From: Pseudorhodobacter sp. E13
Lineage (GTDB): Bacteria > Pseudomonadota > Alphaproteobacteria > Rhodobacterales > Rhodobacteraceae
Reading direction: 5' to 3'
DNA: 64,000 nucleotides
Assembly: GCF_003991405.1 (NCBI RefSeq)
Contig: NZ_RPEN01000159.1
Coordinates: 372,001 to 436,000, forward strand
In this document: positions 4,473 to 26,783 of the stretch, piece by piece
Numbering within the stretch: position 1 is the stretch's first letter
How the letters are laid out: each line of letters starts with the position of its first letter
Notes under the pieces: model-generated
Told to the model about the DNA's origin: nothing
The model's input: only the letters and a program-made list of their open reading frames with translations
Databases searched by the model: none
Program-made: the position numbers and the translations under genes

Positions 4473-5363
4473 ATGCCCGATTACGCCGCCATCGCCGCCC
4501 GCCTTTCCGGCCAGCCAGAGCTTTACGCCTTGCTGCATCGCGCCGCCGCCAATGATGGCCCGATAGAGCTTGCGCCCCTGATGGCGGCTTGTGATGCGCG
4601 GGTGCGCGCACGCTTGGCCTCGGTCGATCAAGGCTTGCTGCGCGCGATTTTGCGGGCTGGTGCGGGGATGGAGGCGGTAGAGGGGTTTGCCGCGATTCTG
4701 GCCCATTTACAGGCCGCAACCCCTGCCCCGATCTTTCGACCCGAAATCATGGCCGGCCCAAGCATCGCCTTGCCAACGGCAGGGCAGCGCGCCGATATGC
4801 CTGCCTTTTCCGACCGCGCCTTTGACGCGTGGTTCGCCCAGCAGGGCGTGCCTTACGGCATCGGGCTTTACGGCGAAAACCGCTCGGTCTATGCCAGTGA
4901 CCAATTTGCCGATATGGCCAGCCATGAACGGCGCACCGTGCATCTGGGGATTGATGTTTTTGCCCCGGCAGGCACCCCGGTATATGCGCCGCTGGCCGGA
5001 ACGGTGCGGCATCTGACCTATCAATCCGATCCGCTGGATTATGGCAATGTGCTGATACTGGAACATGATGACGGCCCCGCCCCATATTTCACGCTTTATG
5101 GCCATCTGGGCGGCAGCTTGCCGGAATTGCTGTCCGAAGGGGCAAGGGTGCAGCCCGGCGACATGATCGCGCATCTGGGCGATTGGCATGAAAACGGCGG
5201 CTGGGCCCCGCATCTGCATTTCCAGATCATGACCTCGATGCTGGAACAAAGCAGCGGCAATTTCTTTGGCGTGGGTCATGCCGGGCTGTGGGGTGTCTGG
5301 GCGCAAATCTGCCCCGACCCGAATATGATCTTGCGGCTGGATGAGGCGCGGTTCAGGGCCTGA
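4473..5363 (+). CDS. M23-family metallopeptidase domain protein
   Basis: A 296-residue protein. The N-terminal ~130 residues are helical and unrecognised. The C-terminal half is an M23 (LytM/lysostaphin-type) domain with the zinc-site motifs HLGIDVFAPAGTPVYAP, LYGHLG and the terminal HLHFQ. M23 enzymes usually cut peptidoglycan cross-bridges in the periplasm, yet no signal peptide or membrane anchor is visible here, so export or a cytoplasmic substrate must be assumed. M23 domains also occur without export signals fused to class III aminotransferases, which is another possible functional setting. It is the second gene of a pair with the 222-residue gene. Confidence 0.8.
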   Translation: MPDYAAIAARLSGQPELYALLHRAAANDGPIELAPLMAACDARVRARLASVDQGLLRAILRAGAGMEAVEGFAAILAHLQAATPAPIFRPEIMAGPSIALPTAGQRADMPAFSDRAFDAWFAQQGVPYGIGLYGENRSVYASDQFADMASHERRTVHLGIDVFAPAGTPVYAPLAGTVRHLTYQSDPLDYGNVLILEHDDGPAPYFTLYGHLGGSLPELLSEGARVQPGDMIAHLGDWHENGGWAPHLHFQIMTSMLEQSSGNFFGVGHAGLWGVWAQICPDPNMILRLDEARFRA

Positions 5364-5401
5364 AACGGCAAGCGGCGGTGCCGTTGCGCAGGCCGGGTAT
5401 A

Positions 5402-5421
5402 GGTATTTTTGCCAAGATGAA
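5402..5421 (-). repeat. dispersed 20-bp intergenic motif, copy 1
   Basis: The complement reads TTCATCTTGGCAAAAATACC, identical to the copy at 23624-23643 and close to copies at 8741-8760, 28421-28440 and 42084-42103. This copy sits between two convergent genes. Confidence 0.6.
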
Positions 5422-5463
5422 GCCCAAGGCGGTGGCTTTTGCGGTGCAGCGGCGGGCAGGGTT

Positions 5464-6612
5464 TCAAGCTTCGGCCACGACCTCAACACAAAGCACAGTG
5501 GGCAGGTGGCGCGCAATCTCGGCCCAGCTTTCGCCTTCATCCAGGCTGGCAAAGACCGAACCGGAATTTGTGCCGAAATAGAGCCCCGTTGGCGTGGCGG
5601 CATCGACCGCCATGGCTTGCCGAAGCACCGTGAAAAAGCAGTTTTCCACCGGCAGCCCCTTGGTTTTCGCCGCCCATGTCGCCCCGGCGTCAGAGGTTTT
5701 ATACACAGCGGCAGAGGCATTTGGCGGGTAGCGGCCTTGCGTGTCGCCGTTCAGCGGCAAGACCCAAGCGGTGGCCGGGTCGGTCGGATGTGCGGCGATG
5801 GGAAAGCCGAAATTGGACGGCAGCCCCGCCGTGATATCCTGCCATGACCGCCCGCCATCGGGGCTGCGAAAGGTGCCGTGGTGGTTTTGCTGATAGATCA
5901 CCTCGCCCGCCCCGGCTGCGCGGGCCATGTTGTGCACGCAATGGCCAATCTCATGGCCGCAGGGCCCATGATCATGCGCCGCATCAGAGGTATTGTCCAA
6001 ACGGTTGCGGCGCTCCCATGAGGTGCCGCCATCCTCACTCGCAAAAACGCCCGCCGCCGAAATCGCCACCCACAGCTTGGCCGGGTCTGCGCGGTCGGCA
6101 AGGATGGTGTGCAGCGTCAGCCCCGCGCCACCGGGTTGCCAACTGTCACCCGAAGGGTGATCCGACAGGCCCTGCACCCGCGCCCAAGTGATGCCGCGAT
6201 CCTTGCTGGCAAACAGCGCGGCGGGTTTTGCCCCGGCATAAAGTGTATCCCCCGCAAGGCACAGCGACCACAGCGCCGCGATCTGCCCCTTGAACGGCGC
6301 GTCCGGGGCCGGGCCATGCCCGACATAAGCGGCAATCTCGGGATCATTGGCGAGCATTTCGTCAAACTGCCCATTGGCAAGCAAGCTCAGCTCCCATGTC
6401 GCGCCGCCATCCTCGGACCGCCAGACGCCTGCGCCGAACATATCATTGCCACCCGCCGCCCAAAGCGTTCCGGTTTCGGGGTCACTGGCGAAATGGTTGA
6501 TCGGCCACCCGTCACACTGCGGGCCAGACAGCTGCCACTGGCCGCGATCGGGGGCCGCCTGCACCAGAAACGCACCTTTGGTCGTGCCAACCAGAATCCG
6601 TGTGCCTGCCAT
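5464..6612 (-). CDS. BNR/sialidase-like beta-propeller repeat protein
   Basis: A 382-residue protein with several Asp-box-like repeats: SEDGGATWE, SKDRGITWA, SEDGGTSWE, SPDGGRSWQ, TSDAGATWA and SLDEGESWA. These are the BNR turns of six- or seven-bladed propellers such as sialidases and VPS10-like domains. No sialidase catalytic set is apparent and there is no signal peptide, so enzymatic activity should not be assumed. A histidine-rich loop (HDHGPCGHEIGHCVH) in the middle could bind metal. The ATG at 6612 follows a G-rich ribosome site. The gene is 50 bp downstream of the TetR gene and probably belongs to the same transcript. Confidence 0.75.
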   Translation of the reverse strand: MAGTRILVGTTKGAFLVQAAPDRGQWQLSGPQCDGWPINHFASDPETGTLWAAGGNDMFGAGVWRSEDGGATWELSLLANGQFDEMLANDPEIAAYVGHGPAPDAPFKGQIAALWSLCLAGDTLYAGAKPAALFASKDRGITWARVQGLSDHPSGDSWQPGGAGLTLHTILADRADPAKLWVAISAAGVFASEDGGTSWERRNRLDNTSDAAHDHGPCGHEIGHCVHNMARAAGAGEVIYQQNHHGTFRSPDGGRSWQDITAGLPSNFGFPIAAHPTDPATAWVLPLNGDTQGRYPPNASAAVYKTSDAGATWAAKTKGLPVENCFFTVLRQAMAVDAATPTGLYFGTNSGSVFASLDEGESWAEIARHLPTVLCVEVVAEA

Positions 6613-12144: not shown

Positions 12145-14946
12145 CTATTGTGGCGGGTTTACGGGTGGGTGCCCCGATCTTCCTGATCCCCCCGCCTCCC
12201 CCCGATCCCATTGCGCGGTCATTTTGCGGTTCAGCCACGCCAATGCCACCAGCGACAGGCCCAGCCCCATGAAGGACATCACGCGGATCAGGCCCGACAG
12301 GCCCGACATATCGACAAGGAACACCTTGGCCACCGTCAGCGCCACGCCTGCCATCGCGATTTTGCGCAGGATGTCCGAGCGGCGCGCGAAGGCAAAGACC
12401 AGCAGCGCCACCGAGGCGATCAGCATCGCGATGGTGTAGTTGTAAAGCTCCGGGTCAGAGAAACCGGGCACCGAAAGGTCGCGGCCACGCCAGAGCCTGC
12501 GGATTTCGGTGCCGATATACATCGCCCCCAGAAAGGCTGCGACCACCGTAAAGCCAAGGCGCGGCAGGCGGCCAAAATGGCGGATTTTCCACGCGCCCAC
12601 GGCAAACACCGCCGCAAGCGGCAGATAGGCCAGCAAAAGGCTGTCAAACACCGGCGGGCCAACCACCAGCCCGCCATAGGCAAAGGGGCTGAGCGCGGTA
12701 AACAAGGCGATCATGGTGCCAAGCGCTGTGAGCGTATAAAGCGCCGTCAGCAACCCGCGCAGCACGGTGCTGAACCGCCCGCCGCCTTGCATCCGGTAAA
12801 GCTGGTTCAGCGCGAGGGCGACCCATATGGTCGACAAAAGGCCCATCATCCAATGGGTATCCACATCGCTTTGCCCGACCGCGCGGATCATGCTGACGGC
12901 AAGGAAGATGCCAAAGATCGTCCAGCAGGCGCTTTCCAGCACCAGCGCGGTTTTCAGCCGTTGCCCGCGTGACAGCCACCATGCGGCCCCCAGCAGGGCA
13001 AGCGTGGCGAGAAAGGCAAAGGCGACCTCGGGGTAAGGCACAAGGTTGGCGGGGCCGTTCCAGCCGATATCCAGCGCCCAAGGCAGGCCGGGCCAGACCA
13101 CCAGCCGGAAGGTGATGATGGCCACGGCGATCTGGATGAACCATGTCAGGGGCGGCAACGGCGTGCGCCTGTCCAGATAGGCGGTGCCCAGCACCATGAC
13201 CGACAGCGCCACCGTCAAGGCGGCTTTGGTCAGCACAAGGAAAACCGCCAGCGTGATCAGCGTCAGCGCGCCCACGGCGAAAAGCCCGGTGCGCAGGGCG
13301 CGGCCGTCGTCCGTGGCGGTGGCCGCGCGGGTGGCCAGCAACACCATCAGCGCGGCCATAGCGATGGCGGCCAGCGCCCAAGGATAGTCGCCCAGCACCG
13401 CGCCGGGGCCCCACATGAATTCAAGGATCAGCAAGGTAGCGGGGGCGAAAATGGTGGAACACAGCGCCCAATAGGCCGGGGCCAGCGGGGCCGAGGGTTC
13501 GCCCTGCAACGCCCAGTTCATCCGCGCGAACATCAGCACGCTGCCCAGCGCGCCAAGGCCCGACAGCACCCAGATCGTCATCGGAAGGGCGGGGGCTGGC
13601 CCATCGGTGACAGGCAGTGCCGCATTCTGAAACGCGCGATACAGCGGGCCGTAGCCAAGGCTTTCAAAGGCCAGCAGCAAAAGGATAGCGATGCCGGGGA
13701 TCAGCGCGTGATCGTAAAGCGCGGGGGCCTGTCGCGCCCAGACAACCGTGGCGGCCAACAGGAGGGTCAGCGCAAGGATGGCAAGCCAGACGGTATCGGG
13801 CGTGGTGGCATCCTGCATCACCAGAACCGCCGCAAGCGTGGCCGCGAAGGTGGTGCCAAGCGTCAGCCGGGTGGGGAACTCGGGGCGCAGCTTGCCCCGG
13901 CTCCAGATCGCGTCCAGCAGCGAGGCACCGGATTGCCGCGGGATCAGCCCGCGCTCGGGGATGGTGAAGGCGCCGAAAGCGATGATCAGCGTGGCGGCAA
14001 GGAAATGCAGGTCCGCCCCTTTGGCTGCATAAAGCACCGCATTGCCGCCCAAGGTCGCCAGCAAGCCCAGCGCGGAAATCCACGCCCAACGCTTGATGGT
14101 ATCAACGCCCAAAGCGGTCAGCGCGATCAGGGCCAGATAGTAATGCACCATCCAGGAATTATTGGAGCTGCTGCCCACCACGAAGGGGGCCAGCGTGGCA
14201 CCCAATATCCCCACCGCCGCCAGCACCGGGCCAGAGAACCAGCCCAGCACCAAGGACACGACCGACACGCCCGCAAGCCCGATCAGCGTGGTCAGCGGCC
14301 CGATCAGATCATAAAGCGCGCGGGCGGAAAAGACGGCGACATAAAGCACGATGATCCCGGCCCCCGACAGGGTAGAGGGCAGGTGCCGCGTGGCCCCCAC
14401 GGCGTCGCCATCCTCCACCTCATCGCCGCCTTTGCGCCGGATATATTCGCCGCCACCGATAAGGGCCGCACCAAAGGCCAGCGCCCCCATGACGCGCCAG
14501 AACGGCGTGATCAGACCGTTTTCAATGCCATATTGCACCATAAACACCCCCGCCAAAGCGAGAGAGGCCGCCGCAATCGCCAGCACCCAGTTTTCGCGCA
14601 ACCACGCCGACAGCTTGTCAACCAGATCGGCCTTGAACACAAAGGCGGCAGGGGTTTCCGGCTCTGGCTCCGGCTGCGGCTCTGGCACGACAGCGGCGGG
14701 CTTTGGGGCCCAAGGTTGCAGCGGTTCTTGCGTTTGCGCCGGGGTCTCCGTTGCCGCGCTCGCGGGCCGGGGTGCGGTGGTTTGCGGCCTTGCCTCAGGG
14801 GCCCGTGCCCCGCGCATCACCAAAGCCTCCAGATCCCGCACCTTGGCTTTCAGCCCCAGATGCGAAATCAGCAGGAAGGGCACCGCCAGCACGCTGAACA
14901 CCGCAACCAGACCAAGCAATATCGCCAGTGCTTCCAGCCCATCCAT
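12145..14946 (-). CDS. DUF2339 polytopic membrane protein
   Basis: About 933 residues. The N-terminal helix (LEALAILLGLVAVFSVLAVP) is followed by a Pro/Ala/Glu-rich linker (~50-125). The remaining ~800 residues are almost continuous transmembrane helices with the motif ENWVLAIAAASLALAGVFMV typical of DUF2339 proteins. The ATG at 14946 is better placed relative to AAGGGG than the one at 14952. The family is widespread in bacteria and has no established function. It lies 104 bp downstream of the eight-gene operon ending at 15051 and may be read through from it. Confidence 0.8.
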   Translation of the reverse strand: MDGLEALAILLGLVAVFSVLAVPFLLISHLGLKAKVRDLEALVMRGARAPEARPQTTAPRPASAATETPAQTQEPLQPWAPKPAAVVPEPQPEPEPETPAAFVFKADLVDKLSAWLRENWVLAIAAASLALAGVFMVQYGIENGLITPFWRVMGALAFGAALIGGGEYIRRKGGDEVEDGDAVGATRHLPSTLSGAGIIVLYVAVFSARALYDLIGPLTTLIGLAGVSVVSLVLGWFSGPVLAAVGILGATLAPFVVGSSSNNSWMVHYYLALIALTALGVDTIKRWAWISALGLLATLGGNAVLYAAKGADLHFLAATLIIAFGAFTIPERGLIPRQSGASLLDAIWSRGKLRPEFPTRLTLGTTFAATLAAVLVMQDATTPDTVWLAILALTLLLAATVVWARQAPALYDHALIPGIAILLLLAFESLGYGPLYRAFQNAALPVTDGPAPALPMTIWVLSGLGALGSVLMFARMNWALQGEPSAPLAPAYWALCSTIFAPATLLILEFMWGPGAVLGDYPWALAAIAMAALMVLLATRAATATDDGRALRTGLFAVGALTLITLAVFLVLTKAALTVALSVMVLGTAYLDRRTPLPPLTWFIQIAVAIITFRLVVWPGLPWALDIGWNGPANLVPYPEVAFAFLATLALLGAAWWLSRGQRLKTALVLESACWTIFGIFLAVSMIRAVGQSDVDTHWMMGLLSTIWVALALNQLYRMQGGGRFSTVLRGLLTALYTLTALGTMIALFTALSPFAYGGLVVGPPVFDSLLLAYLPLAAVFAVGAWKIRHFGRLPRLGFTVVAAFLGAMYIGTEIRRLWRGRDLSVPGFSDPELYNYTIAMLIASVALLVFAFARRSDILRKIAMAGVALTVAKVFLVDMSGLSGLIRVMSFMGLGLSLVALAWLNRKMTAQWDRGEAGGSGRSGHPPVNPPQ

Positions 14947-15050
14947 GCCCATACCCCTTATCTGCCTGCGGCGTCACCCGCCCCTTGGCCCAAGGCTACT
15001 GCCAAACGCCCAAAATCCGCAACGCAAACGCGCGGCCCCCAAAAGGGCCT

Positions 15051-15701
15051 TTAGCGGCGCGGCTTGCCTGTCCATGTCGCCAGCCACGCCTTGAACCGCG
15101 CCCAAAGCCCATCGGCGCGGGCGTCCACCTCGTCAATCGTGTCGCCAATGCTTTCCAGCGCCGGGTCAATCGTGCGCTCGCGGAACTGCGCCCACATCCG
15201 CCACAGCAGCAGCAAAACGCCCCCCAACACCACAAAGAAGATCACATTGAACCACGGGAAGATGCTGGCATCCGGCCCCTCTACCGGGCGCATGCTGATC
15301 GCATTGGGGAAAATCGTCAGAAACTCATTGCGCCAACCGTAATGAGTGATCGCGACCCAGCGCGGGTTGTCGACGCTGGACACCATGCCCTGCGCCTCGG
15401 CTTGCAGGTTGGAACTGTCCAGCTTGAAATAGGGCGGCCAGCCCCAGCCGGTATCTTCATTGCGATACACCATCGGCTTGCCATCGGCGCGGAAGGTCTG
15501 AATGAAAAACACATCGCGGTTCTTGTCCACCGCCGTGCCGACATCAGGGCTGGCCCAGAAAAACGAATTCTCGCCAAAATCAATGCGCCGGTTTTCCGTG
15601 CCCACCACCCGCGCGATATCGGTTTGCGGCAAGGTGTAGTGAAAGAACGAAAACAGCAGCAAAGCGATGAGGCTAAGGAAGGTCCATTTTACATAGCGCA
15701 T
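15051..15701 (-). CDS. DUF1523-family membrane protein (operon gene 8)
   Basis: 216 residues with an N-terminal helix (residues ~5-22), a ~130-residue probably periplasmic domain rich in Trp and Tyr (GWGWPPYF, HYGWRNEF), then a second helix (~150-170, FFVVLGGVLLLLWRMWA) and a charged cytoplasmic tail. This fits DUF1523 proteins of Rhodobacterales as I recall them. It is the last gene of the tight operon beginning at 22157, 13 bp after the preceding small membrane gene. Function unknown. Confidence 0.7.
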   Translation of the reverse strand: MRYVKWTFLSLIALLLFSFFHYTLPQTDIARVVGTENRRIDFGENSFFWASPDVGTAVDKNRDVFFIQTFRADGKPMVYRNEDTGWGWPPYFKLDSSNLQAEAQGMVSSVDNPRWVAITHYGWRNEFLTIFPNAISMRPVEGPDASIFPWFNVIFFVVLGGVLLLLWRMWAQFRERTIDPALESIGDTIDEVDARADGLWARFKAWLATWTGKPRR

Positions 15702-15714
15702 GGGCGGCCCCTTT

Positions 15715-15981
15715 TCAGGCGAAGTTCAAAAGATACACAGCCGCTATCACGGCGATGGTCGGGATAACATAGACAAGCCAGATGAGTTTCTTGCGCAGCC
15801 CCTTTTCATATTGCGCCATGCCCGCCGCGATATAGTCCTCACGCTCCCCCGGGCCTTGGGCGGCATCCCATTCCTTCTCCAGCTCCTCCCGCTGGGTGGA
15901 CCGGGAATAGATGCTGACCAGAACATAAAGCACGGTCAGCCCGATCAGGCCAAAGACGGCAAGACGCATGAAACCGATCAT
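15715..15981 (-). CDS. small two-helix membrane protein (operon gene 7)
   Basis: 88 residues. A TM helix at ~5-22 (LAVFGLIGLTVLYVLVSIYS), a central charged loop (REELEKEWDAAQGPGERED) and a second TM at ~68-86. The ATG at 15981 overlaps the stop of the 453-residue gene as ATGA, which indicates translational coupling. A longer upstream reading would enter the preceding gene. No known family is recognised. Confidence 0.75.
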   Translation of the reverse strand: MIGFMRLAVFGLIGLTVLYVLVSIYSRSTQREELEKEWDAAQGPGEREDYIAAGMAQYEKGLRKKLIWLVYVIPTIAVIAAVYLLNFA

Positions 15982-17339
15982 CGCTGGGCCTTTCGCACGG
16001 CACCCCATGGGCCGACAAGGTCAACCATCTTGGGGGCGGGTTTGGGTTCTGGCCGCTCTGCCTCATCCATGCCGGGTTCGGCACCGAACAAGGCCGCGCG
16101 CGCGCCTGCCTTATCCACCTGATACTCCCGTTCCAGAAAATCGGCAACATAGCCGCGCTTGCGGTCCGACCAGCGGGCATAGCTGGCGTAGAACAATTCC
16201 TTATGCGTGATGAACATCTGCCGCACATCCAAAGGCGCAAGCTGGCTCAGCAGCATGTTCACCAGATCGCGGTCCGCATGCGGGCGCGCGCGCAGCGTAT
16301 AGAAATAGGCCGGATGTTCCGACGTGATGCGCGGCCAGTCGCCGCCACCTTCGACCCAGGTCAGCAAGCGCGCAAGGCCAAGGAATTCATCCGGCAGGCT
16401 GGCCCCCAACCGCTGCGCGATCTTGCGCAGATCGTTGCGGGTGGCCGCGCCCAGATCAAGGTTCAGCGCATCCGCCGCCTCGACCAGAATGAAATCCATC
16501 TTTTGCCGCAACACCGCCGCACTATCCATGCCGCGCGCCTTGACGATGGGTTCCACCAGCCCGTTCCGCTCCATCCAATCCGCGATATGGTTGCGGTTGG
16601 TCAGGTCCATCACCTCGATCTTCGGCAAACTGCCGAGAGAGGCTTTGGGCATGACCGAAATCACCGCCGGCACCTTCACATCCCGAAACACATACAGCCC
16701 GCCGAAATGCGAGGTCCAGAAATTCGCCTGTTCAAAGGTCATCTTTGGCAAGGCAATCGGCACCCGCGTCACATCACCGGTTTTCTTGGCCAAACCGATC
16801 ATCTCGGCGATCAGAACATCATCGCGCCAGCCCTTTGGGTCGCGGCGAAACTGGTCGATCTTTTGCGCCAGCTTGCCTGCATCGGCCACATGGCCCCCGA
16901 TCGTATCCGCCTCGATGGTGATCCGGCGAATGTCCAGCAGCCGCGCGGGGTTGGACACTTCATAAACGCTGTTGAACAATTCCCCCGCCACGGCATCCCG
17001 CGCGGTCAGCGCAAACAGTTGCGCCTCATTCGCCTCGATAAATTGCCGCAAAATCCCGCGAGAGGTGGAAAAGGTGACATTCAGCAAAGGCGCGGTTTTC
17101 TGCGCCGTGGTCAGCAAGATGAACTGCCGGTTGCAGCCATTGGGGTTAAGGTAACGATCATCGCCCAATTCATCCCCGATCTCTGGGGAATAGCCGGAAA
17201 TATCAATGTGAAAATCGGTAAGCGCGGTGCGCTTGCCCGCCAGATGCTCCAACGCGCGGTTATAGCGTTCGATCAACGCGGGCGAGGACACCTCGACCAG
17301 ATTGCCGAACATCAGACCTTTCTGGATCAGCCGTTTCAT
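15978..17339 (-). CDS. uncharacterised soluble protein, DUF6638-like (operon gene 6)
   Basis: 453 residues with no signal peptide or TM helix. It resembles a Rhodobacteraceae family that I recall as DUF6638 (from memory, to be verified). Conserved-looking segments include LTDFHIDISGYSPEIGDELGD near the N-terminus and HFGGLYVFRDV in the middle. The C-terminal ~30 residues are Pro/Glu-rich. The start at 17339 overlaps the previous gene as ATGA and the stop overlaps the next gene as ATGA, so it is embedded in the operon with the AAA+ ATPase. Role unknown. Confidence 0.75.
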   Translation of the reverse strand: MKRLIQKGLMFGNLVEVSSPALIERYNRALEHLAGKRTALTDFHIDISGYSPEIGDELGDDRYLNPNGCNRQFILLTTAQKTAPLLNVTFSTSRGILRQFIEANEAQLFALTARDAVAGELFNSVYEVSNPARLLDIRRITIEADTIGGHVADAGKLAQKIDQFRRDPKGWRDDVLIAEMIGLAKKTGDVTRVPIALPKMTFEQANFWTSHFGGLYVFRDVKVPAVISVMPKASLGSLPKIEVMDLTNRNHIADWMERNGLVEPIVKARGMDSAAVLRQKMDFILVEAADALNLDLGAATRNDLRKIAQRLGASLPDEFLGLARLLTWVEGGGDWPRITSEHPAYFYTLRARPHADRDLVNMLLSQLAPLDVRQMFITHKELFYASYARWSDRKRGYVADFLEREYQVDKAGARAALFGAEPGMDEAERPEPKPAPKMVDLVGPWGAVRKAQR

Positions 17340-17662
17340 GGCATGTCCTTCGGCTTGGTCGCCATCACACTCTCCGCCCGACGACTGAACAGAACCAGAT
17401 AGACAGGCAACCAGAACACCGCCGAAAATCCGGCCAGCGCCAGCGATTCCCAAAACCGCGACTTGATCTCTGTCAGATGGTCGGGGTTAACGATGAACAA
17501 CAGCGCCACCGCCGTAAACCCGATCAGAAAAATCCCCTTCATCCGCGCATGCGCCGGCCCGCGCGAAAACAGACTGGCGGGGCGGGTGACAAAAGGCACA
17601 ATAACAAAGGCGACATAAAGGAAAGCCAAGATCACAATGGCCGCAACAATCAGATAGGTCAT
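17336..17662 (-). CDS. small three-helix membrane protein (operon gene 5)
   Basis: 108 residues with about three hydrophobic helices (residues 1-24, ~44-60 and ~75-93). The ATG at 17662 is chosen because the protein then begins directly with a TM helix (TYLIVAAIVILAFLYVAFVI) and GGGTGG precedes it. It overlaps the next gene by four bases (ATGA). It is separated from the AAA+ gene upstream by 106 bp containing a strong hairpin. Confidence 0.7.
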   Translation of the reverse strand: MTYLIVAAIVILAFLYVAFVIVPFVTRPASLFSRGPAHARMKGIFLIGFTAVALLFIVNPDHLTEIKSRFWESLALAGFSAVFWLPVYLVLFSRRAESVMATKPKDMP

Positions 17663-17727
17663 CCAACCACCCCGCAAATGTGAAACCGCGTCCCGCTTTC
17701 TTTTCGGCACAAATATCCTCGGGGGGT

Positions 17728-17750
17728 GCGGGGGGCAGACAGCCCCCCGC
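17728..17750. terminator. GC-rich hairpin inside the eight-gene operon
   Basis: A perfect 9-bp stem GCGGGGGGC/GCCCCCCGC with loop AGACA, in the 106-bp gap after the AAA+ gene. There is no U-run on the minus strand. It may be an mRNA-processing or partial-termination site setting different levels for genes 1-4 and 5-8. Beside it, at 17706-17718, is a partial copy of the dispersed motif (GGCACAAATATCC). Confidence 0.45.
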
Positions 17751-17768
17751 CGCTGGTCCAAATACCCA

Positions 17769-19703
17769 TCATTTCCCCTCCAGATAGCGCCGCTTGGCTT
17801 CTTCCTGCCGGCCAAAATCGCGGACCATGTTGGAAATCGCGACCTCATCCGATTTATCGGCATAGCGGAACTCACTATCCGCATAGCGGTTGATTTCCTG
17901 TATCACCATCTCCACCGTGATCTTCTGCGTCATGCCCCGGATCATCGCCAGCTTCTCGTCATAGGGTTTGAACAGGAACAAATCCGGCTGTTCCATCCAT
18001 TCATCCGGCAGCTCAAAATCCATCGCCCGCACTTTCACAGCATCGGTGATGTTCTTGATCGCGCGGCCGGTAAAGCGGGGGTCGGCCTCTTGGATCGCCT
18101 TCAGATAGGTCCCGAGTTTGGCAATGGTGTCCAGCTTGCCGATATCGCGGCCCACTTGGTCCCAGACGCGCAGCAAGCCGTCCTCATGCGGGCGGGAATG
18201 GCCTTCAAAACTGGCGGCAACGGCGCGTTTCATTTCCTGCGCGGCGAACAGCTCATGCGCGCCCACCGGGATCTCATGGTTCTTGCCCATCAGCAACGCA
18301 AGGATATCAATGTAATCCTCGCGGGTTTGCGGGCCGTCGACCAGAAACCGCGCCCCAGACCGTTGGCGCAAGGCGTCATCCACATTCTCGGGATAGTTGG
18401 AAAACATCCCGAAGGTGCAATTGCCACGCACCACCGTATTGGCCCCGGCAAAGGCCTCCATGAAAACCGCCGTCACCTCTTGCTGCCCCGCGCTGGACTG
18501 TTTGTCCCCGCGTTTCCCTGCGATCTGGTCGATGTCATCAATCGTGCCGAACCCGATCACGCCGGGGTCCAGCACATTGTTGATAAAGGCCTTGGCGTTT
18601 TGCCCCGATTTGCCCTGATAGCTGTCGATCTGATCAATCGAGAAGTTCTGATAGCGGAACGGATAGCCCGCCACCTTGCAGTAATCATTCAACAATCCCG
18701 CCATCATCTGGATCAGCGTGGTTTTCCCCGTCCCCGGCGCGCCATCCCCCATGAAGGTAAAGATGAACCCGCCCATCTCGGCAAAAGGGTTCAGCTTGCG
18801 GTCAAAATCATAGGCCATCAGCATCTTGGCCAAACGCAGGCTTTGGTATTTGGCGATATGGTTGCCGACAACCTCATTCGGCTTTTTGAAGGTCATCGTC
18901 AGGGCGGTGCCCTTGGCGGCCAGCGCGGGTTTGAACCCGGCAATCGTCAGCTTGTCCGCCTCCACCCGCCAGCTTGCAGCGGTAAAGCCGCTGATACGGG
19001 GGGCCTCTTGCCCGCGCAAGGCAACCTTGGCCATAAGCTGCTCGGCATAGGCCAACACGGTGGCGACCAGCGTTGCGTCATCTTGCGCATGGGCGGCGAT
19101 AGCTTGGTCCAGCTCCCACAGCGCGCCATGCAGGGCGAGGGGGGCGTTATCGGTCAGCACTTCTTCGACGGGGCCAATCTCGGCGGTGCGTTCGCTGGCA
19201 TGCGGGGCCAACAGGAATGCGGTGGCATTGCCGAAAGTGTAAAGCACGGCCAGCGCCTCGGCGGCCAGAAGCTCGGTAAACTCGGGCTTGCGATCAGCGG
19301 GCAGGCGCCCTTCAAGATTGGCTTTCTTCAACTCCACCAGCGGGGTCTGGCGGGCATATTCCTGCCCCACGGCCAGTGCGATGGACAACGCGCGGCGCAG
19401 GGCCTGCCCCACGGTCGCCTGAAGCGGCGAGGTCAGCGGGTCGTCATCATCCTGTTCCGCGATCCGCTCCAGCAGCCGCACCCCGTCTGCCCGCGCGGTA
19501 GAGCGTGTCACCAACCCCGGCGTGGTGGACCGAAAGCGCCGCCCCGTGGCCGCCACCCCCGGTGATCTTTCGGCCACGACAGGGGCATGGCGCGCGGTGC
19601 CGATGCGCGGCGTATGGTCCACACCCATCAACATCTCGGTCGCGGCCAGATAATGCGATCGGATATCGTCTTCGCGCAGTTCCATCGTGTCACGGGTCGT
19701 CAT
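17769..19703 (-). CDS. AAA+ ATPase (operon gene 4)
   Basis: 644 residues. The N-terminal ~280 residues are helical and unrecognised. The AAA+ module follows: Walker A GDGAPGTGKTT (~319-329), Walker B VIGFGTIDDID (~382-392), a sensor-1-like SNYPE (~435-439) and candidate arginine fingers in ALRQRSGARF (~446-448). The C-terminal helical lid extends to ~640. Walker B has Asp-Asp where most AAA+ proteins have Asp-Glu. No protease, helicase or DNA-binding domain is fused. The start at 19703 follows AGGAATTTGAC. It is the central gene of the operon and is probably a remodelling ATPase acting on the coiled-coil or membrane partners, by inference from context only. Confidence 0.85.
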   Translation of the reverse strand: MTTRDTMELREDDIRSHYLAATEMLMGVDHTPRIGTARHAPVVAERSPGVAATGRRFRSTTPGLVTRSTARADGVRLLERIAEQDDDDPLTSPLQATVGQALRRALSIALAVGQEYARQTPLVELKKANLEGRLPADRKPEFTELLAAEALAVLYTFGNATAFLLAPHASERTAEIGPVEEVLTDNAPLALHGALWELDQAIAAHAQDDATLVATVLAYAEQLMAKVALRGQEAPRISGFTAASWRVEADKLTIAGFKPALAAKGTALTMTFKKPNEVVGNHIAKYQSLRLAKMLMAYDFDRKLNPFAEMGGFIFTFMGDGAPGTGKTTLIQMMAGLLNDYCKVAGYPFRYQNFSIDQIDSYQGKSGQNAKAFINNVLDPGVIGFGTIDDIDQIAGKRGDKQSSAGQQEVTAVFMEAFAGANTVVRGNCTFGMFSNYPENVDDALRQRSGARFLVDGPQTREDYIDILALLMGKNHEIPVGAHELFAAQEMKRAVAASFEGHSRPHEDGLLRVWDQVGRDIGKLDTIAKLGTYLKAIQEADPRFTGRAIKNITDAVKVRAMDFELPDEWMEQPDLFLFKPYDEKLAMIRGMTQKITVEMVIQEINRYADSEFRYADKSDEVAISNMVRDFGRQEEAKRRYLEGK

Positions 19704-19718
19704 GTCAAATTCCTAACG

Positions 19719-20843
19719 TCAACGCTGCGGCAGCACGCGGCCACCCGCGCCCACCACGAATTTACGAACATCGGCAAAGCCTGCGGGGCGCTTTTCCGCC
19801 AGCGCCTGAAACGGGCGTTCCGGCATGATCAGCATCCGCTCCATGCTGGTCGCGCCAATATCGGCAAGGGTTTTGCCGACAAAGGGGCTGGAGGCAAAAA
19901 TCTGCCGTTCGGAGGAGGAGAACCAACCGGTTTTCACGGTTTCCTCGCGCTCGGCGCGCAAATCCTCGACCGTCCAGACCAGCGCCCAATCCTGCCCCGG
20001 TTCAGGGCGGGCTGCGGCCAACACCTCGGAAATCGGGCCGGTTTGCAGCGTGAAACTGCTGGAATACATCGGCCCCAGATGGATGCGGCGCAGGCGTTTG
20101 GGGTGCAGATCGTCGAAATCGGTGTCGAACCCCTTGGCAATCGTCACCAGTTTCAACCCGTTCAGCGATTGCGCCATCAGATGCGCCTGCACCTGCGGCC
20201 AGCGCCGGTTGTCCTTGGGCAAGGGGGTTCTGCCGCTGTCCTCAAGGTTCAGCATATAGATCACGGGCAGATTGGTTTGCGTGTCATACACCGCCCAATG
20301 CACGAGCCATGACTTCCGCTCCCGCGTTTCGCCCAGCCATTGCACATCGGCATCATTGCGCGCCCAGAATTGCTGCCCATTGCGCAGGCTTTCATAGTAA
20401 AGCCGCTGCGACAGGGTGAATTGCAGTCTGGTCGGGATCGCCAACTCCCCGACGATCTGGCGGATCATCGCATCCTTGATCTCGGTTTCCGAGGGCAATT
20501 GCGCCAGATGCCTGTCGGCCTGCTGCGCATCATTGGCCATGACCAGCAATTCCTGCGCGATGGGAAAGCCGGATTCGTGCCGATCAAAGGTCAGCTTGCC
20601 GGGCAAAGGGCCATCCACCCGGCCCGTCATCAGGTATTTATACCCCAAAGACTGAAACGTCAGGTTGAGCCGCTGGACATAAGCCCCGATCACCCGCGCT
20701 TCCAGCTTGGTCAGATGGCCTTCGCTTTCCAGTTCCGCCGCAACACGGCCCAGATGCCCGGTGATCTTGTCAAACTTGTCGAAATAGCGCCGGACAACAG
20801 CGGTATCATACAGCTCTGCATGGTCATCGGTCAGCGTGTTCAC
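19719..20843 (-). CDS. uncharacterised soluble protein (operon gene 3)
   Basis: 374 residues with no membrane segment. The N-terminus (1-60) is helical (YFDKFDKITGHLGRVAAELE). The middle contains aromatic-rich beta segments (SWLVHWAVYDT, LPVIYMLNLED). I do not recognise the family. The start is GTG at 20843, overlapping the stop of the 80-residue gene as GTGA. The AAA+ gene starts 15 bp after its stop. The fixed position next to the ATPase suggests a partner or adaptor, which is inference. Confidence 0.75.
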   Translation of the reverse strand: MNTLTDDHAELYDTAVVRRYFDKFDKITGHLGRVAAELESEGHLTKLEARVIGAYVQRLNLTFQSLGYKYLMTGRVDGPLPGKLTFDRHESGFPIAQELLVMANDAQQADRHLAQLPSETEIKDAMIRQIVGELAIPTRLQFTLSQRLYYESLRNGQQFWARNDADVQWLGETRERKSWLVHWAVYDTQTNLPVIYMLNLEDSGRTPLPKDNRRWPQVQAHLMAQSLNGLKLVTIAKGFDTDFDDLHPKRLRRIHLGPMYSSSFTLQTGPISEVLAAARPEPGQDWALVWTVEDLRAEREETVKTGWFSSSERQIFASSPFVGKTLADIGATSMERMLIMPERPFQALAEKRPAGFADVRKFVVGAGGRVLPQR

Positions 20844-21082
20844 TGCTCATCTTTCCTTTTGCGCCGCAGATACACACCCGCAGCGCTGATCGCCACAAAA
20901 ACCGCGACAAAGCCCAACTGCCCCGGATTGGGCGCCACCGCAAAGCCATCGGTGGCCGCGCCAAGATAAAGCGCGGCCAGAATCGCCATGACCACGGCCC
21001 AGACCGACCAGCGATCCCCCTCGCCAAAGAACATGATGTAAATCACGTTCAGCGCGCGCAGCGTGGCCTGCCACAGCCGCAT
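20840..21082 (-). CDS. small two-helix membrane protein (operon gene 2)
   Basis: 80 residues with TM helices at ~22-40 (VWAVVMAILAALYLGAATDG) and ~53-70, ending in a basic tail (LRRKRKDEQ). It starts at 21082 directly after the coiled-coil gene's stop (one base between). A longer reading frame extends into the coiled-coil gene and is less likely. It could anchor the soluble partners to the inner membrane. Confidence 0.7.
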   Translation of the reverse strand: MRLWQATLRALNVIYIMFFGEGDRWSVWAVVMAILAALYLGAATDGFAVAPNPGQLGFVAVFVAISAAGVYLRRKRKDEQ

Positions 21083-21083
21083 A

Positions 21084-22157
21084 TCAGCCGCCGTATTGGT
21101 TCTTGTCGTGTTTCTCGACAATCGCGGCAAAGCGGCGGGCAAAGCGTTCATCCGCCTTGGCCTTGGCCTCCAGCACCTTGCGGGCGTAAACCATATGATC
21201 CTCATGCGCTTCCATCATGTCGGCCATACGGTTGTTGGTGGCGGTGCCAATGGCGGCCATGGCGGCCTGTGCCTCTTGGTCGGTTTTCACCCCGATTTCA
21301 TTGATGCGATGCGCCACATCCTGCTGCTGCGCGGTTTTCAAGCTGGAGGTCAGCGCATCATACAGCACCACTCGCTGCTTGGTATCGGTTTGCAGCTTGT
21401 TGATCAGAACCATCTGGGTGGCGGCTTGGTTTTGCAAGCTGTCCATCCAGGTTTTACCCTTTTCGATATAGCGTTCCAGCGTCTGCGATTTTGCCAGATC
21501 AACCTGCTCTTGCTGCACCAGTGCGTTATAGCGGGTGTTCAACTCGGCCAATTCGCTTTCCAGCTTGGTGCGCTTGGCGGCGTCCTGTTCGACGCTGATC
21601 TTGTTTTCCAATTCGATGATCTTGGGGTCCATCCCCGCAATCTCGGCCCGCACCGCTTCCAGCGCGCCCACGGTGGCCTCGCGCTCTTCCAGCGTTGCGC
21701 TCAGGTTGCTTTCCACGCTGTCTTTTTGGGTGTTCAGCATATCCAACTGGCCCTGCAACAGCTTGACGATGATATCGGATTTGCCGATCAGATCCTGCAA
21801 CTTGTCGTCGATGGAGGCCGAGCGCATCCGCTCCTGCCGCATGGATTCCGCCTTGGCGTTGGAGAAGATGCCGATAAAGCTTTCCATCCCGGTCTTGTTG
21901 CGCATTTCATCAAAATCGCGGCTGAAGCCTGCGGTCACATCATCCAGACCCATGATCAGATCGGCGATATTGGCATTCATCAGGTCGGTATGCTTATGCA
22001 CATCGTCCAACGTGGCGTTTTCCACGTCAATCGCCGCTTCGCCCGCTTCGATCTTGGCCCGCGCGGTTTCAATCCTGCTGGTAATCTCAGAGATTTTGGC
22101 CTGCGCCTTTGCCACTTGATCCTGACTTTCGCGGATCTTGCTGTCGAAATCTGCCAT
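21084..22157 (-). CDS. coiled-coil protein (operon gene 1)
   Basis: 357 residues, almost entirely alpha-helical and highly charged. Heptad-like stretches run at ~1-55, ~115-200 and ~205-240, with no TM helix or signal peptide. A Met/Ile-rich section (residues ~60-110) may be a hinge. The architecture recalls PspA/TelA-like filamentous cytoplasmic proteins, but I see no specific signature. The ATG at 22157 is preceded by GGAGG with seven-base spacing and is preferred over the ATG at 22187. It is the promoter-proximal gene of the eight-gene operon and may be the main substrate or scaffold of the AAA+ ATPase. Confidence 0.8.
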   Translation of the reverse strand: MADFDSKIRESQDQVAKAQAKISEITSRIETARAKIEAGEAAIDVENATLDDVHKHTDLMNANIADLIMGLDDVTAGFSRDFDEMRNKTGMESFIGIFSNAKAESMRQERMRSASIDDKLQDLIGKSDIIVKLLQGQLDMLNTQKDSVESNLSATLEEREATVGALEAVRAEIAGMDPKIIELENKISVEQDAAKRTKLESELAELNTRYNALVQQEQVDLAKSQTLERYIEKGKTWMDSLQNQAATQMVLINKLQTDTKQRVVLYDALTSSLKTAQQQDVAHRINEIGVKTDQEAQAAMAAIGTATNNRMADMMEAHEDHMVYARKVLEAKAKADERFARRFAAIVEKHDKNQYGG

Positions 22158-22341: not shown

Positions 22342-23622
22342 ATGCAAACCGAACCGCGCCTGATGCAGGAAATTGACCAACGCCGCAGCGATCTGGTGGC
22401 GCTGACGCAAGGCTTGATCCGTATTCCCACGCTGAACCCGCCGGGGCAGCAGTATCGCGAGATTTGCGACTACCTTGGCGCGCGGCTGGAACGCAGCGGC
22501 TTTGCGGTGGAACTGCTGCGCGCCCATGGCAGCCCCGGTGACAGCGACCGCTTTCCGCGTTGGAACATGGTGGCGCGGCGCAACGGTGCCCGGCCCGGTG
22601 ATTGCGTGCATTTCAACAGCCATCATGACGTGGTCGAAGTGGGCCACGGCTGGACCCGTGACCCCTTTGGCGGCGCTATGGAAGGCGACCGCATCTATGG
22701 CCGTGGGGCCTGCGATATGAAAGGCGGGCTTGCCGCCAGCGTGATCGCGGCAGAGGCCTTCATTGCCGCCTATCCCGACCATGCCGGGGCCATCGAAATC
22801 TCGGCCACGGCGGATGAGGAGTCTGGCGGCTTCGGCGGCGTGGCATGGCTGGCCGAACGTGGCTATTTCAACCCCGAACGCGTGCAACATGTCATCATCC
22901 CCGAACCCTTGCACAAGGATCGCATCTGCCTTGGCCATCGTGGCGTCTGGTGGGCCGAGGTGGAAACCCATGGCCGCATCGCCCATGGCTCCATGCCCTT
23001 TCTGGGCGACAGCGCGATCCGCCACATGGGCGCCGTGCTGGCCGAGATCGAGGAACGGCTTTACCCGCTGCTGGCCACCAAACGCACCCAGATGCCCGTG
23101 GTCCCCGAAGGGGCAAAGCAATCCACGCTGAACATCAACTCCATCCACGGCGGCGAGGCGGAACCGGAACCCGGCTCCACCGCCCTGCCCGCGCCCTGCG
23201 TGGCCGATCGCTGCCGCATCATCCTCGACCGCCGCTTCCTGATCGAAGAAGACATCGCGCAGGTGAAACAGGAAATCACCGATGTGCTGGACCGCGTCAA
23301 AGCCCGGCGCCCCGGCTTTTCCTATGACATCCGCGACCTGTTCGAGGTGCAACCCACCATGGCCAGCCCCGACGCGCCTATCGTCCGCTCCACCGCAGCG
23401 GCCATCGAACGTGTGCTTGCCAAAACCGCCGATTATGTCGTCTCTCCCGGCACCTATGACCAGAAACATATCGACCGTATCGGGCGGCTGAAAAACTGCA
23501 TCGCCTATGGCCCCGGCCTGCTGCATCTGGCCCATCAGCCGGATGAATGGGTGGGGATTCAGGATATGCAGGACAGCGCAAAGGTCATGGCCCTCGTGCT
23601 GGCCGACCTGCTCAGCGCCTGA
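22342..23622 (+). CDS. M20-family metallopeptidase (ArgE/DapE type)
   Basis: 426 residues. Dinuclear zinc-site motifs are present: SHHDVVE (His94, Asp96), GACDMKGG (Asp125), and the catalytic pair DEE (Glu159/Glu160). A C-terminal His sits in GPGLLHLAHQPDEW. Such enzymes hydrolyse N-acyl amino acids or dipeptides. The annotation acetylornithine deacetylase/succinyl-diaminopimelate desuccinylase family is appropriate. The true substrate is uncertain, because the gene stands alone and the sequence does not look like core DapE. It is divergent from the coiled-coil operon and followed by a copy of the dispersed motif. Confidence 0.85.
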   Translation: MQTEPRLMQEIDQRRSDLVALTQGLIRIPTLNPPGQQYREICDYLGARLERSGFAVELLRAHGSPGDSDRFPRWNMVARRNGARPGDCVHFNSHHDVVEVGHGWTRDPFGGAMEGDRIYGRGACDMKGGLAASVIAAEAFIAAYPDHAGAIEISATADEESGGFGGVAWLAERGYFNPERVQHVIIPEPLHKDRICLGHRGVWWAEVETHGRIAHGSMPFLGDSAIRHMGAVLAEIEERLYPLLATKRTQMPVVPEGAKQSTLNINSIHGGEAEPEPGSTALPAPCVADRCRIILDRRFLIEEDIAQVKQEITDVLDRVKARRPGFSYDIRDLFEVQPTMASPDAPIVRSTAAAIERVLAKTADYVVSPGTYDQKHIDRIGRLKNCIAYGPGLLHLAHQPDEWVGIQDMQDSAKVMALVLADLLSA

Positions 23623-25961: not shown

Positions 25962-26783
25962 TTACAGCGGCACATTGCCTTCATCTGCGCCGGGCACCGT
26001 GCCATCGCGCGGATCATCAAAGATCGGCGGCGGATCAGCGGCGATTGCCTCTTCGCTATAGATCAGATCAGGATCGACGCGGCGGGCCGGAACCTCTACC
26101 CCGCGGTTGAAGTTTTCCGGGTCAACCCGCAGCGATTCCGCCTCGGACCGCACATGCACCCGCGTGCCAATCGGCACCATTTCATACAATGCGATCACAT
26201 CATGGTTGAACATGCGGATACAGCCGGCAGAACTGGAGTTGCCGATGCTGTCCAGCGCATTGGTGCCATGGATGCGGTAGAACGTATCGCGCCCGCCCTT
26301 ATACAGATACAGCGCCCGCGCGCCCAAGGGGCTGCGCAACCCGCCGCGAATACCGCGCGCAAAGGGGCCATAGATTTCCGGCTCAGTGCGCAGCATGTTC
26401 TTGGTCGGGGTCCATCCCGGCCACTTCTTCTTGACCTGAATCGTGCCTTCGCCCGCAAAACTGCGCCCGGCGCGGCCTGCCCCGATGGGAAAGCGCACGG
26501 AATTGGCCCCTTCGCGCACGAAATACAAAAACTTGGCATAGGGGTCGACGTCAATCGTGCCGGGGGGCTGTTCACCCAGATAGGTGCCGGTGATCCGCCG
26601 GTTGACCCCTTGCAGATATTCTGTCGGCACGGCTGCCAGTTTATAGCCGCTGTCATAAATCGGGCCATAGCCTTCGACGAAACCTGCGCTTGGTGCAGGG
26701 GCCTCGGGTGCCGCGCAGGCACCCAACAGGGCCGACCCTGTCAGCGTCAGAAAGGTGCGGCGATTCACGGGAAGTTGGGTCAC
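25962..26783 (-). CDS. L,D-transpeptidase (YkuD) lipoprotein/Tat-type precursor
   Basis: 273 residues. The N-terminus [19 protein letters not shown] combines a twin-arginine motif with a lipobox (LLGAC). The YkuD catalytic site is [13 protein letters not shown] followed by [11 protein letters not shown], with the active Cys in GCIRM. It would form 3-3 peptidoglycan cross-links or attach lipoproteins in the periplasm. The C-terminal ~60 residues after the domain are acidic and Pro-rich. The start is GTG at 26783 after a GAGAG sequence, so the exact start is somewhat uncertain. Confidence 0.9.

Follow-up and report, generated by a model that had tools for sequence, protein, structure and literature searches.

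A conserved AAA+ ATPase and coiled-coil operon with an exchangeable gene slot in Pseudorhodobacter and its relatives: a candidate membrane-linked remodelling system

Examination of a 64,000-nucleotide stretch of the genome of Pseudorhodobacter sp. E13 (positions 372,001 to 436,000 of contig NZ_RPEN01000159.1; the whole stretch is called the window below) reveals eight co-oriented genes on its minus strand, spanning positions 22157 to 15051, that are organized around an AAA+ ATPase. We label them A (coiled-coil protein, 357 aa), B (80 aa), C (374 aa), D (the AAA+ ATPase, 644 aa), E (108 aa), F (453 aa), G (88 aa) and H (216 aa). The order and strand of six of these genes, A-C-D-F-G-H, recur in other genera and families, and for this reason the arrangement is more than a product of chance; A-C-D-F is the smallest shared core. 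We propose, with about an even chance of being right, that A, C, D and F constitute a single, hitherto undescribed membrane-linked AAA+ remodelling machine acting on A, with a slot for exchangeable genes embedded between D and F.

Conservation of the operon and its core

Named genomes were scanned with a pattern derived from the D alignment, at least 562 of the 589 stretches obtained being confirmed, and the best 80 loci by D similarity were retained. This set is biased to close relatives, its titles naming Rhodobacterales or unclassified alphaproteobacterial bins; the addition of four further loci (L007-L010) yields a set of 84. Genes A-C-D-F-G-H occur in this order on one strand in 67 of the 80 loci, with ten of the remainder cut by contig ends and three otherwise incomplete; in L078, H falls below the coverage limit used. 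Beyond this set, A-C-D-F is also present in the named Sinorhizobium meliloti and Vibrio records. The gene-neighborhood check that the original prediction had called for thus bears out its idea of a dedicated set of genes around an AAA+ ATPase, with a coiled-coil protein and membrane proteins, whose order is kept in distant genera. That prediction had taken all eight genes as the set; six are indeed conserved, but B and E are lineage-specific and E lies in the exchangeable slot. Since they are matched in only 3 and 4 of the 84 loci respectively, we place B and E outside the conserved set.

Among more distant loci, A-C-D-F-H is seen in L010, from another family, and in L122, whereas all six genes are found in L123, from another class. 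Four loci of the family f160 (L119, L120, L121 and L126) have A-C-D-F; the synteny of the f160 locus with that of the S. meliloti record leads us to take this family for Rhizobiaceae. No match to G was found in L010, L122, the f160 loci or the Vibrio and Sinorhizobium records, and a gene of the DUF2333 family occupies the place equivalent to H in Sinorhizobium and f160. In terms of phyletic spread, D is detected in 26 of 398 genomes in one sample of the phylum, and A in the same 26 at E≤2.5e-169, with four further genomes giving weaker A matches (E 3e-43 to 2e-11). DUF6638, the family of F, is found in 90 of 198 genomes of the family to which the window belongs, sampled at one genome per genus, and in 6 of 289 genomes across the class, five of them over the cut-off. 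The AAA region of D has no match in phage records; it matches ten plasmid records, each of them a replicon of at least 0.88 Mb.

In the window the genes are packed almost without gaps, as had been claimed, with the coordinates and lengths confirmed. The intergenic distances from A to H are 1, -4, 15, 106, -4, -4 and 13 nt, and GTGA or ATGA overlaps occur at the B/C, E/F and F/G junctions. Hydropathy analysis indicates two, three, two and two membrane segments in B, E, G and H, which agrees with the four small membrane proteins of 80, 108, 88 and 216 residues described earlier, and none in A, C, D and F. Likewise, no protease, kinase or DNA-acting Pfam family was found above its curated cut-off among the eight window proteins. 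In the same database D matches AAA (PF00004; E 3.8e-12, 47.2 bits against a cut-off of 21.2), F is DUF6638 (PF20343; E 1.9e-215, profile positions 1-439 of 439) and H is DUF1523 (PF07509; E 1.5e-72, positions 1-176 of 176), while C has no family and A only coiled-coil matches below threshold. Thus, of the two soluble proteins that had been called unrecognised, C remains without a family, but the 453-residue F belongs, as does the 216-residue H, to a family without a known function.

Gene D encodes a divergent classical-clade AAA+ ATPase

The D protein (window positions 17769-19703; all operon genes lie on the minus strand) combines an N-terminal region of its own (approximately residues 1-280) with an AAA module that is very conserved. 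Among the matches listed (60 of 64) for a 12-member profile of D compared with the PDB, those at E≤0.01 are the i-AAA protease, VCP-like ATPases, Rpt subunits and AFG2; katanin, PAN and PEX6 come after them at weaker E-values. With residue roles deduced from the alignment and from what is generally known of AAA+ proteins, the following are invariant in all 93 aligned D proteins: 1) the Walker A motif G-x-P-G-T-G-K-T, including K327; 2) Y362-Q363-G364 at the position of pore loop 1 (18612-18620); 3) N436 as the sensor-1 asparagine; 4) R446, R448 and R452 in the arginine-finger region. Two alignments of D with PDB chains place YQG on the pore loop and the Walker B sequence IDDID (18528-18542) on IDELD or IDEID. 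At the position of the catalytic glutamate, a feature of active members and not one that defines the family, there is an aspartate (D390) in 93 of 93 proteins. Together these observations identify D as a divergent member of the classical clade in which the change of glutamate to aspartate is a real departure, one that would predict slow or specially regulated hydrolysis. A match of the N-terminal region of D to 5y05 (msmeg_4306), a non-AAA chain, obtained with a 5-member profile (E 0.0014), was set aside; it is absent from the 12-member list (60 of 64 matches).

Natural loss of C-D-F and the fate of the coiled-coil protein A

The A protein (21084-22157) is cytoplasmic and all-helical. An AlphaFold2 model built from close relatives only has helices at residues 2-37, 50-88, 98-189, 193-288 and 293-353, of which those at 98-189 and 193-288 form a long hairpin; its mean pLDDT is 60.5, and a Foldseek comparison with the PDB returned generic coiled-coil matches, none at E≤0.001. 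The four genomes with weak A matches, all belonging to f160, come from one genus (G710, G518 and G576) and another (G722), and share the gene order thymidine kinase (tdk), A, DUF2333, formate-tetrahydrofolate ligase (fhs). The same order of neighbors is seen in S. meliloti, with C-D-F lying between A and DUF2333. Searches of these four genomes gave no match to C or D at E≤1 and none to F over the cut-off, while two control relatives scored strongly with each.

The A proteins of these four genomes are only 30, 32, 31 and 22% identical to the A of S. meliloti, as against 80-90% in the four f160 loci that have C-D-F. The neighbors do not drop likewise: identity to S. meliloti without and with C-D-F is 73-76% versus 64-78% for tdk (not found in L121), 80-82% versus 81-87% for fhs and 58-61% versus 51-72% for DUF2333. 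Hence A alone has diverged fast where C-D-F was lost, its neighbors being as conserved as in relatives that retain the three genes. Over residues 273-326 of the window A protein, identity is 0.20, 0.17, 0.24 and 0.04 in the four genomes, where about 22 residues are gapped in the alignment; no such loss is seen at the C-terminal end (327-357; 0.26-0.35). The Vibrio A, which is accompanied by C-D-F, is 0.28-0.36 identical over residues 1-240 yet 0.46 over 273-326. Thus a segment of approximately residues 270-318 (21204-21350) is kept in aligned loci with C-D-F and missing or replaced in the four genomes without them. From this we infer that the segment serves the C-D-F module as a putative handle, and that the rest of A, together with DUF2333, has a role independent of C-D-F. 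Loci L188-L191, with A and DUF2333 and no C-D-F, represent an orphan pair of a coiled-coil and a membrane protein.

Several candidate homologies of A were considered. An identification with TelA (PF05816), suggested by length and helical layout, gives an hhalign probability of 0.4%, and TelA is not among the Pfam families listed for A (25 of 54 in one listing); PspA_IM30 gives 1.1% (P 0.047), with no PspA match in Pfam, the positive control, an easy one, being the A of genomes without C-D-F at 99.9%. Two apparent bridge proteins, in G862 and G375, were rejected, one being read as a coiled-coil frame anchored in the membrane and the other as resembling a chemoreceptor. That the operon belongs to a bacterial system homologous to ESCRT-III/Vps4 or PspA is consequently very improbable in our estimation. 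What speaks for it is a resemblance in the way such systems work, a helical-hairpin protein beside a classical-clade AAA+ ATPase, along with the PspA-AAA+ operons discussed in the available part of PMC11237479; the hhalign and Pfam comparisons of A stand against it. A co-occurrence of TelA with the operon was also dropped, TelA being present in only 3 of 10 operon-bearing f160 genomes. In its own right, TelA is nearly ubiquitous in the order (60 of 61 genomes; in the window genome at G000:C151:95848-96843), with an SPFH-like and a zinc-ribbon-like gene following it, as read from L149.

Other constituents of the core and their membrane partners

Gene C (19719-20843) has a GTG start and encodes a soluble protein. 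Its AlphaFold2 model, likewise from close relatives only, is a confident alpha/beta fold with a mean pLDDT of 87.8, for which Foldseek found no match in the PDB or BFVD at E≤0.001. T-fold proteins (QueF-like, GTP cyclohydrolase and uricase) appear repeatedly among its PDB matches, but never better than E 0.3, and are not taken as evidence. Searching solved structures with the sequences of A, C, F and H gave nothing useful. F (15978-17339) is likewise a core protein without transmembrane segments. G (15715-15981), with two transmembrane segments, is kept in most Rhodobacterales loci, and H (15051-15701) has two transmembrane segments with about 120 aa between them; DUF2333 also carries membrane segments. 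B (20840-21082), a two-transmembrane protein at the A-C junction, and the three-transmembrane E (17336-17662) are the lineage-specific members.

As the original prediction had surmised, no description of the system was found in literature searches on the gene set and its families, and none returned a paper on DUF6638. DUF2333 is mentioned in a type VI secretion system locus, with no function given in the part of that source available. As a lead only, another paper lists a ChvI-bound DNA fragment inside SMc02733, a tag that may belong to the S. meliloti operon.

A proposed remodelling machine and points against it

In light of the above, we envisage D as an ATPase that is expected to form a ring and that, together with the soluble C and F, would grip the coiled-coil protein A via its segment of approximately residues 270-318. 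By this means D-C-F might remodel or disassemble assemblies of A at the inner membrane. The machine would be tied to the membrane and periplasm by membrane partners that differ between lineages, G with the DUF1523 protein H in Rhodobacterales and DUF2333 in Rhizobiaceae, and B and E of the window would not be parts of it. Of the membrane-associated remodelling machine that had been suggested at the outset, the conserved set of AAA+, coiled-coil and membrane proteins stands, but membrane remodelling itself is putative. The coiled-coil protein had been cast as a scaffold or substrate; its divergence and loss of a segment along with C-D-F argue for a partner or substrate.

Several observations weigh against this proposal. 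Two loci that are not obviously cut short, L055 and L079, have only A-C-D in the stretch, with no F-G-H, and the annotated Vibrio stretch is without DUF1523 or DUF2333, so the membrane link is not universal. The Walker B aspartate could mean that the ATPase activity of D is weak or regulatory, and that activity, the role of D and its contact with A are predicted. The model of A is of low confidence; moreover, the whole of A has diverged in the four genomes without C-D-F, and in G722 residues 151-200 are missing too (0.06), so that the 270-318 segment is not the sole change. These four losses come from two genera within a single family and may represent one or two events. Finally, the defence-type genes in the D-F slot could mean that the whole operon is a defence system.

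A different kind of function would be that of a specialized chaperone resembling AAA+ proteins of the MoxR or CbbX type, with D, C and F assembling or repairing one particular envelope complex and A as a structural cofactor and not a substrate. The conserved DUF1523, G or DUF2333 membrane partners would fit such a role, as would the persistence of A with DUF2333 where the ATPase is absent, which implies that A has a role of its own. However, the nearest PDB relatives of D are classical-clade unfoldases and severing enzymes, CbbX matches D only at E 0.08, and clustering of the neighbors reveals no single family that the majority of the 92 loci have in common: the largest cluster (43 of 92), as we read it, brings together different types of aldehyde dehydrogenase encoded on either side of the operon, and the second is a YkuD-type protein (22 of 92). 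We therefore regard a chaperone of this kind as improbable.

The exchangeable slot between D and F

The gap between D and F exceeds 180 nt in 73 of the 84 loci that have both genes. Gaps of this size are found at 47 of 86 A-C junctions (median 233 nt), 7 of 88 C-D junctions and none of the 78 F-G or 77 G-H junctions. Wherever the D-F gap was about 250 nt or longer, candidate cargo open reading frames (ORFs) were collected on the same strand if they had a minimum of 95 aa or of two hydrophobic segments, with no more than two taken per gap. This yielded 77 ORFs in 66 loci, falling into 36 BLAST families, 27 of them single ORFs; 48 of the 77 have at least two hydrophobic segments, and some are probably spurious frames. 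The longest D-F ORF runs with the operon in 54 loci and in the opposite direction in 12. A codon model, which would also reject genes of foreign composition, passed 34 ORFs over the three gapped junctions (26 in D-F, six in A-C and two in C-D), all in the direction of the operon. In the normally short C-D junction, L088 (8386-9951, plus strand) carries a 521-aa protein with about ten hydrophobic segments.

Most of the 78 slot proteins (the 77 and E of the window) match no Pfam or PADLOC family. The Pfam matches are to DUF559 (seven), Mrr_cat (two) and AbiJ_NTD4 (two), and one each to putAbiC, PIN_10, RNase_T, SLFN_AlbA_2 (Schlafen), DUF2971 and DUF433, with no recombinase family among them; PADLOC gives type IV restriction, PDC-S02, S31, S37, S48 and others. 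One DEDDh exonuclease is among the Pfam and PADLOC matches. An IS4-like element lies in the Sinorhizobium slot. The slot protein of L059 (12807-13439, plus strand) has a weak PDC-S35 match in PADLOC (E 0.001), and its start presumably resembles that of a nucleotide-binding type of defence protein. Median GC content is below that of the core by 11 points in soluble cargo, 3 in membrane cargo and 6 in the fixed gene G; since G itself is low, only the value for soluble cargo suggests a foreign origin.

Where D is at least 95% identical between two loci, both carry the same cargo family in only 9 of 100 pairs, and the corresponding counts, for pairs that are not independent of one another, are 20 of 61 at 92-95% D identity, 19 of 19 at 88-92%, 21 of 62 at 80-88% and 103 of 1494 at 70-80%. 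Thirteen Ruegeria-titled loci carry ten cargo families, and the Yoonia/Loktanella group a single three-transmembrane family; cargo exchange is fast in some groups such as the former and slow in others such as the latter. Gene E of the window sits in this slot, which genes acquired by horizontal transfer, several of defence type, have occupied again and again.

These features raise the possibility of a new anti-phage or conflict system, in which A-C-D-F(-G-H) senses infection or membrane damage and the co-translated slot gene is an interchangeable effector such as a nuclease, Abi protein or small membrane protein. It would be in keeping with the wide D-F gap beside the closed F-G and G-H junctions, with the variety of cargo families, including nuclease, Abi, Schlafen and several PDC candidates, and with their rarity of sharing between loci whose D proteins are at least 95% identical. 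The exact 4-nt overlap of cargo with F in 33 of 66 loci and with D in 14 of 66, and the patchy occurrence of the marker DUF6638 among genera of the family, point the same way. On the other side, the cargo is not obligatory, as the core stands without it in several distant loci: the D-F gap is 180 nt or less in 11 of 84 loci and 48 nt in the Vibrio records. The slot is stable in the lineage with 88-92% D identity, f160 and Sinorhizobium both have the locus at a constant position next to tdk and fhs, annotated neighbors in f160, Sinorhizobium and Vibrio are not named as defence genes, and the AAA region is very conserved. Against PADLOC-DB 2.0.0 the core proteins gave weak matches only (D to TRIP13 at E 2.1e-4 and IetA at 0.005; A to LmuB at 3e-4 and REase_II at 0.015), and C, F, G and H none. 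That the slot is enriched for defence genes is an impression. On balance we hold a conflict system to be unlikely, though a serious candidate. Its more elaborate form, a modular system with a membrane-tied core of AAA+, coiled-coil and DUF6638 proteins and many unrelated co-translated effectors, swapped at one junction faster than the core diverges, seems to us a shade less likely still.

That the slot is only a hot spot for passive insertion, functionally unconnected with the core, has a chance that we put somewhat short of even; this reading concerns the slot alone and is for that reason compatible with the remodelling machine. The differences in cargo between close relatives, the low GC content of soluble cargo and the existence of cargo-free loci all favor it. 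It is less readily squared with the uniform direction of the ORFs passed by the codon model, with the absence of recombinase families among the Pfam matches, the IS4-like element notwithstanding, or with the overlaps with F, although these carry little weight because the ATGA start of F makes them easy. The slot is probably passive in part.

Genes in the vicinity of the operon

An M20-type peptidase gene (22342-23622, plus strand) is divergent from the operon and starts 184 nt upstream of A; a divergent gene of this kind is found no more than 1.5 kb from A in 12 of the 76 named loci that have A. Further upstream is a YkuD-like gene (25962-26783, minus strand), by reading of the L,D-transpeptidase type. 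At the other end, 98 nt beyond H, there is a 935-aa DUF2339 protein gene with multiple transmembrane segments (12145-14952, minus strand), which adjoins H in only three of the 84 loci (L019, L020 and L022), all Pseudorhodobacter, and could in this lineage be co-transcribed as a ninth gene. In L122 a PspA/IM30 protein and a YiaAB two-helix protein are encoded just downstream of the operon (5099-6115, minus strand), past an opposite-strand gene.

Significance and relationship to known systems

The occurrence of DUF6638 in 90 of 198 sampled genera of the family and of the core in Sinorhizobium and Vibrio contrasts with the state of annotation, the proteins being unnamed or DUFs. The natural loss of C-D-F singles out one short segment of A as a predicted contact. 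The D-F slot provides a marker by which new genes for small membrane proteins and nucleases can be found, part of which probably act against phages, and raises the question of whether the cargo genes are guests or effectors of the ATPase core.

Defence loci with swappable or guest genes are reportedly exemplified by the modularity of Zorya and by defence hot spots. Operons of the window type resemble them in placing a conserved set beside exchangeable defence-type genes, but differ in that the core is unmatched in PADLOC-DB and the cargo not obligatory. With ESCRT-III and Vps4 they share the gene for a long helical-hairpin protein beside that for a classical-clade AAA+ ATPase and a link to the membrane; however, A has no detectable PspA homology, no MIT domain is among the Pfam matches of D, and C and F are additional core members. 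The PspA-AAA+ operons described in the available part of PMC11237479 also combine coiled-coil, AAA+ and membrane proteins in one operon, but A lacks PspA homology and the two-domain AAA, Vps4-like and beta-propeller-fused versions reported there do not fit D. The closest relationship is to the classical-clade AAA+ ATPases (FtsH-type i-AAA, p97/VCP-like, Rpt, AFG2 and katanin), with which D has in common the AAA module, Walker A, the pore-loop tyrosine, the sensor-1 asparagine and the arginines of the arginine-finger region. It is set apart from them by the Walker B aspartate in 93 of 93 proteins, a distinct N-terminal region in which, as in the rest of the protein, no protease domain was found, and its fixed partners A, C and F.

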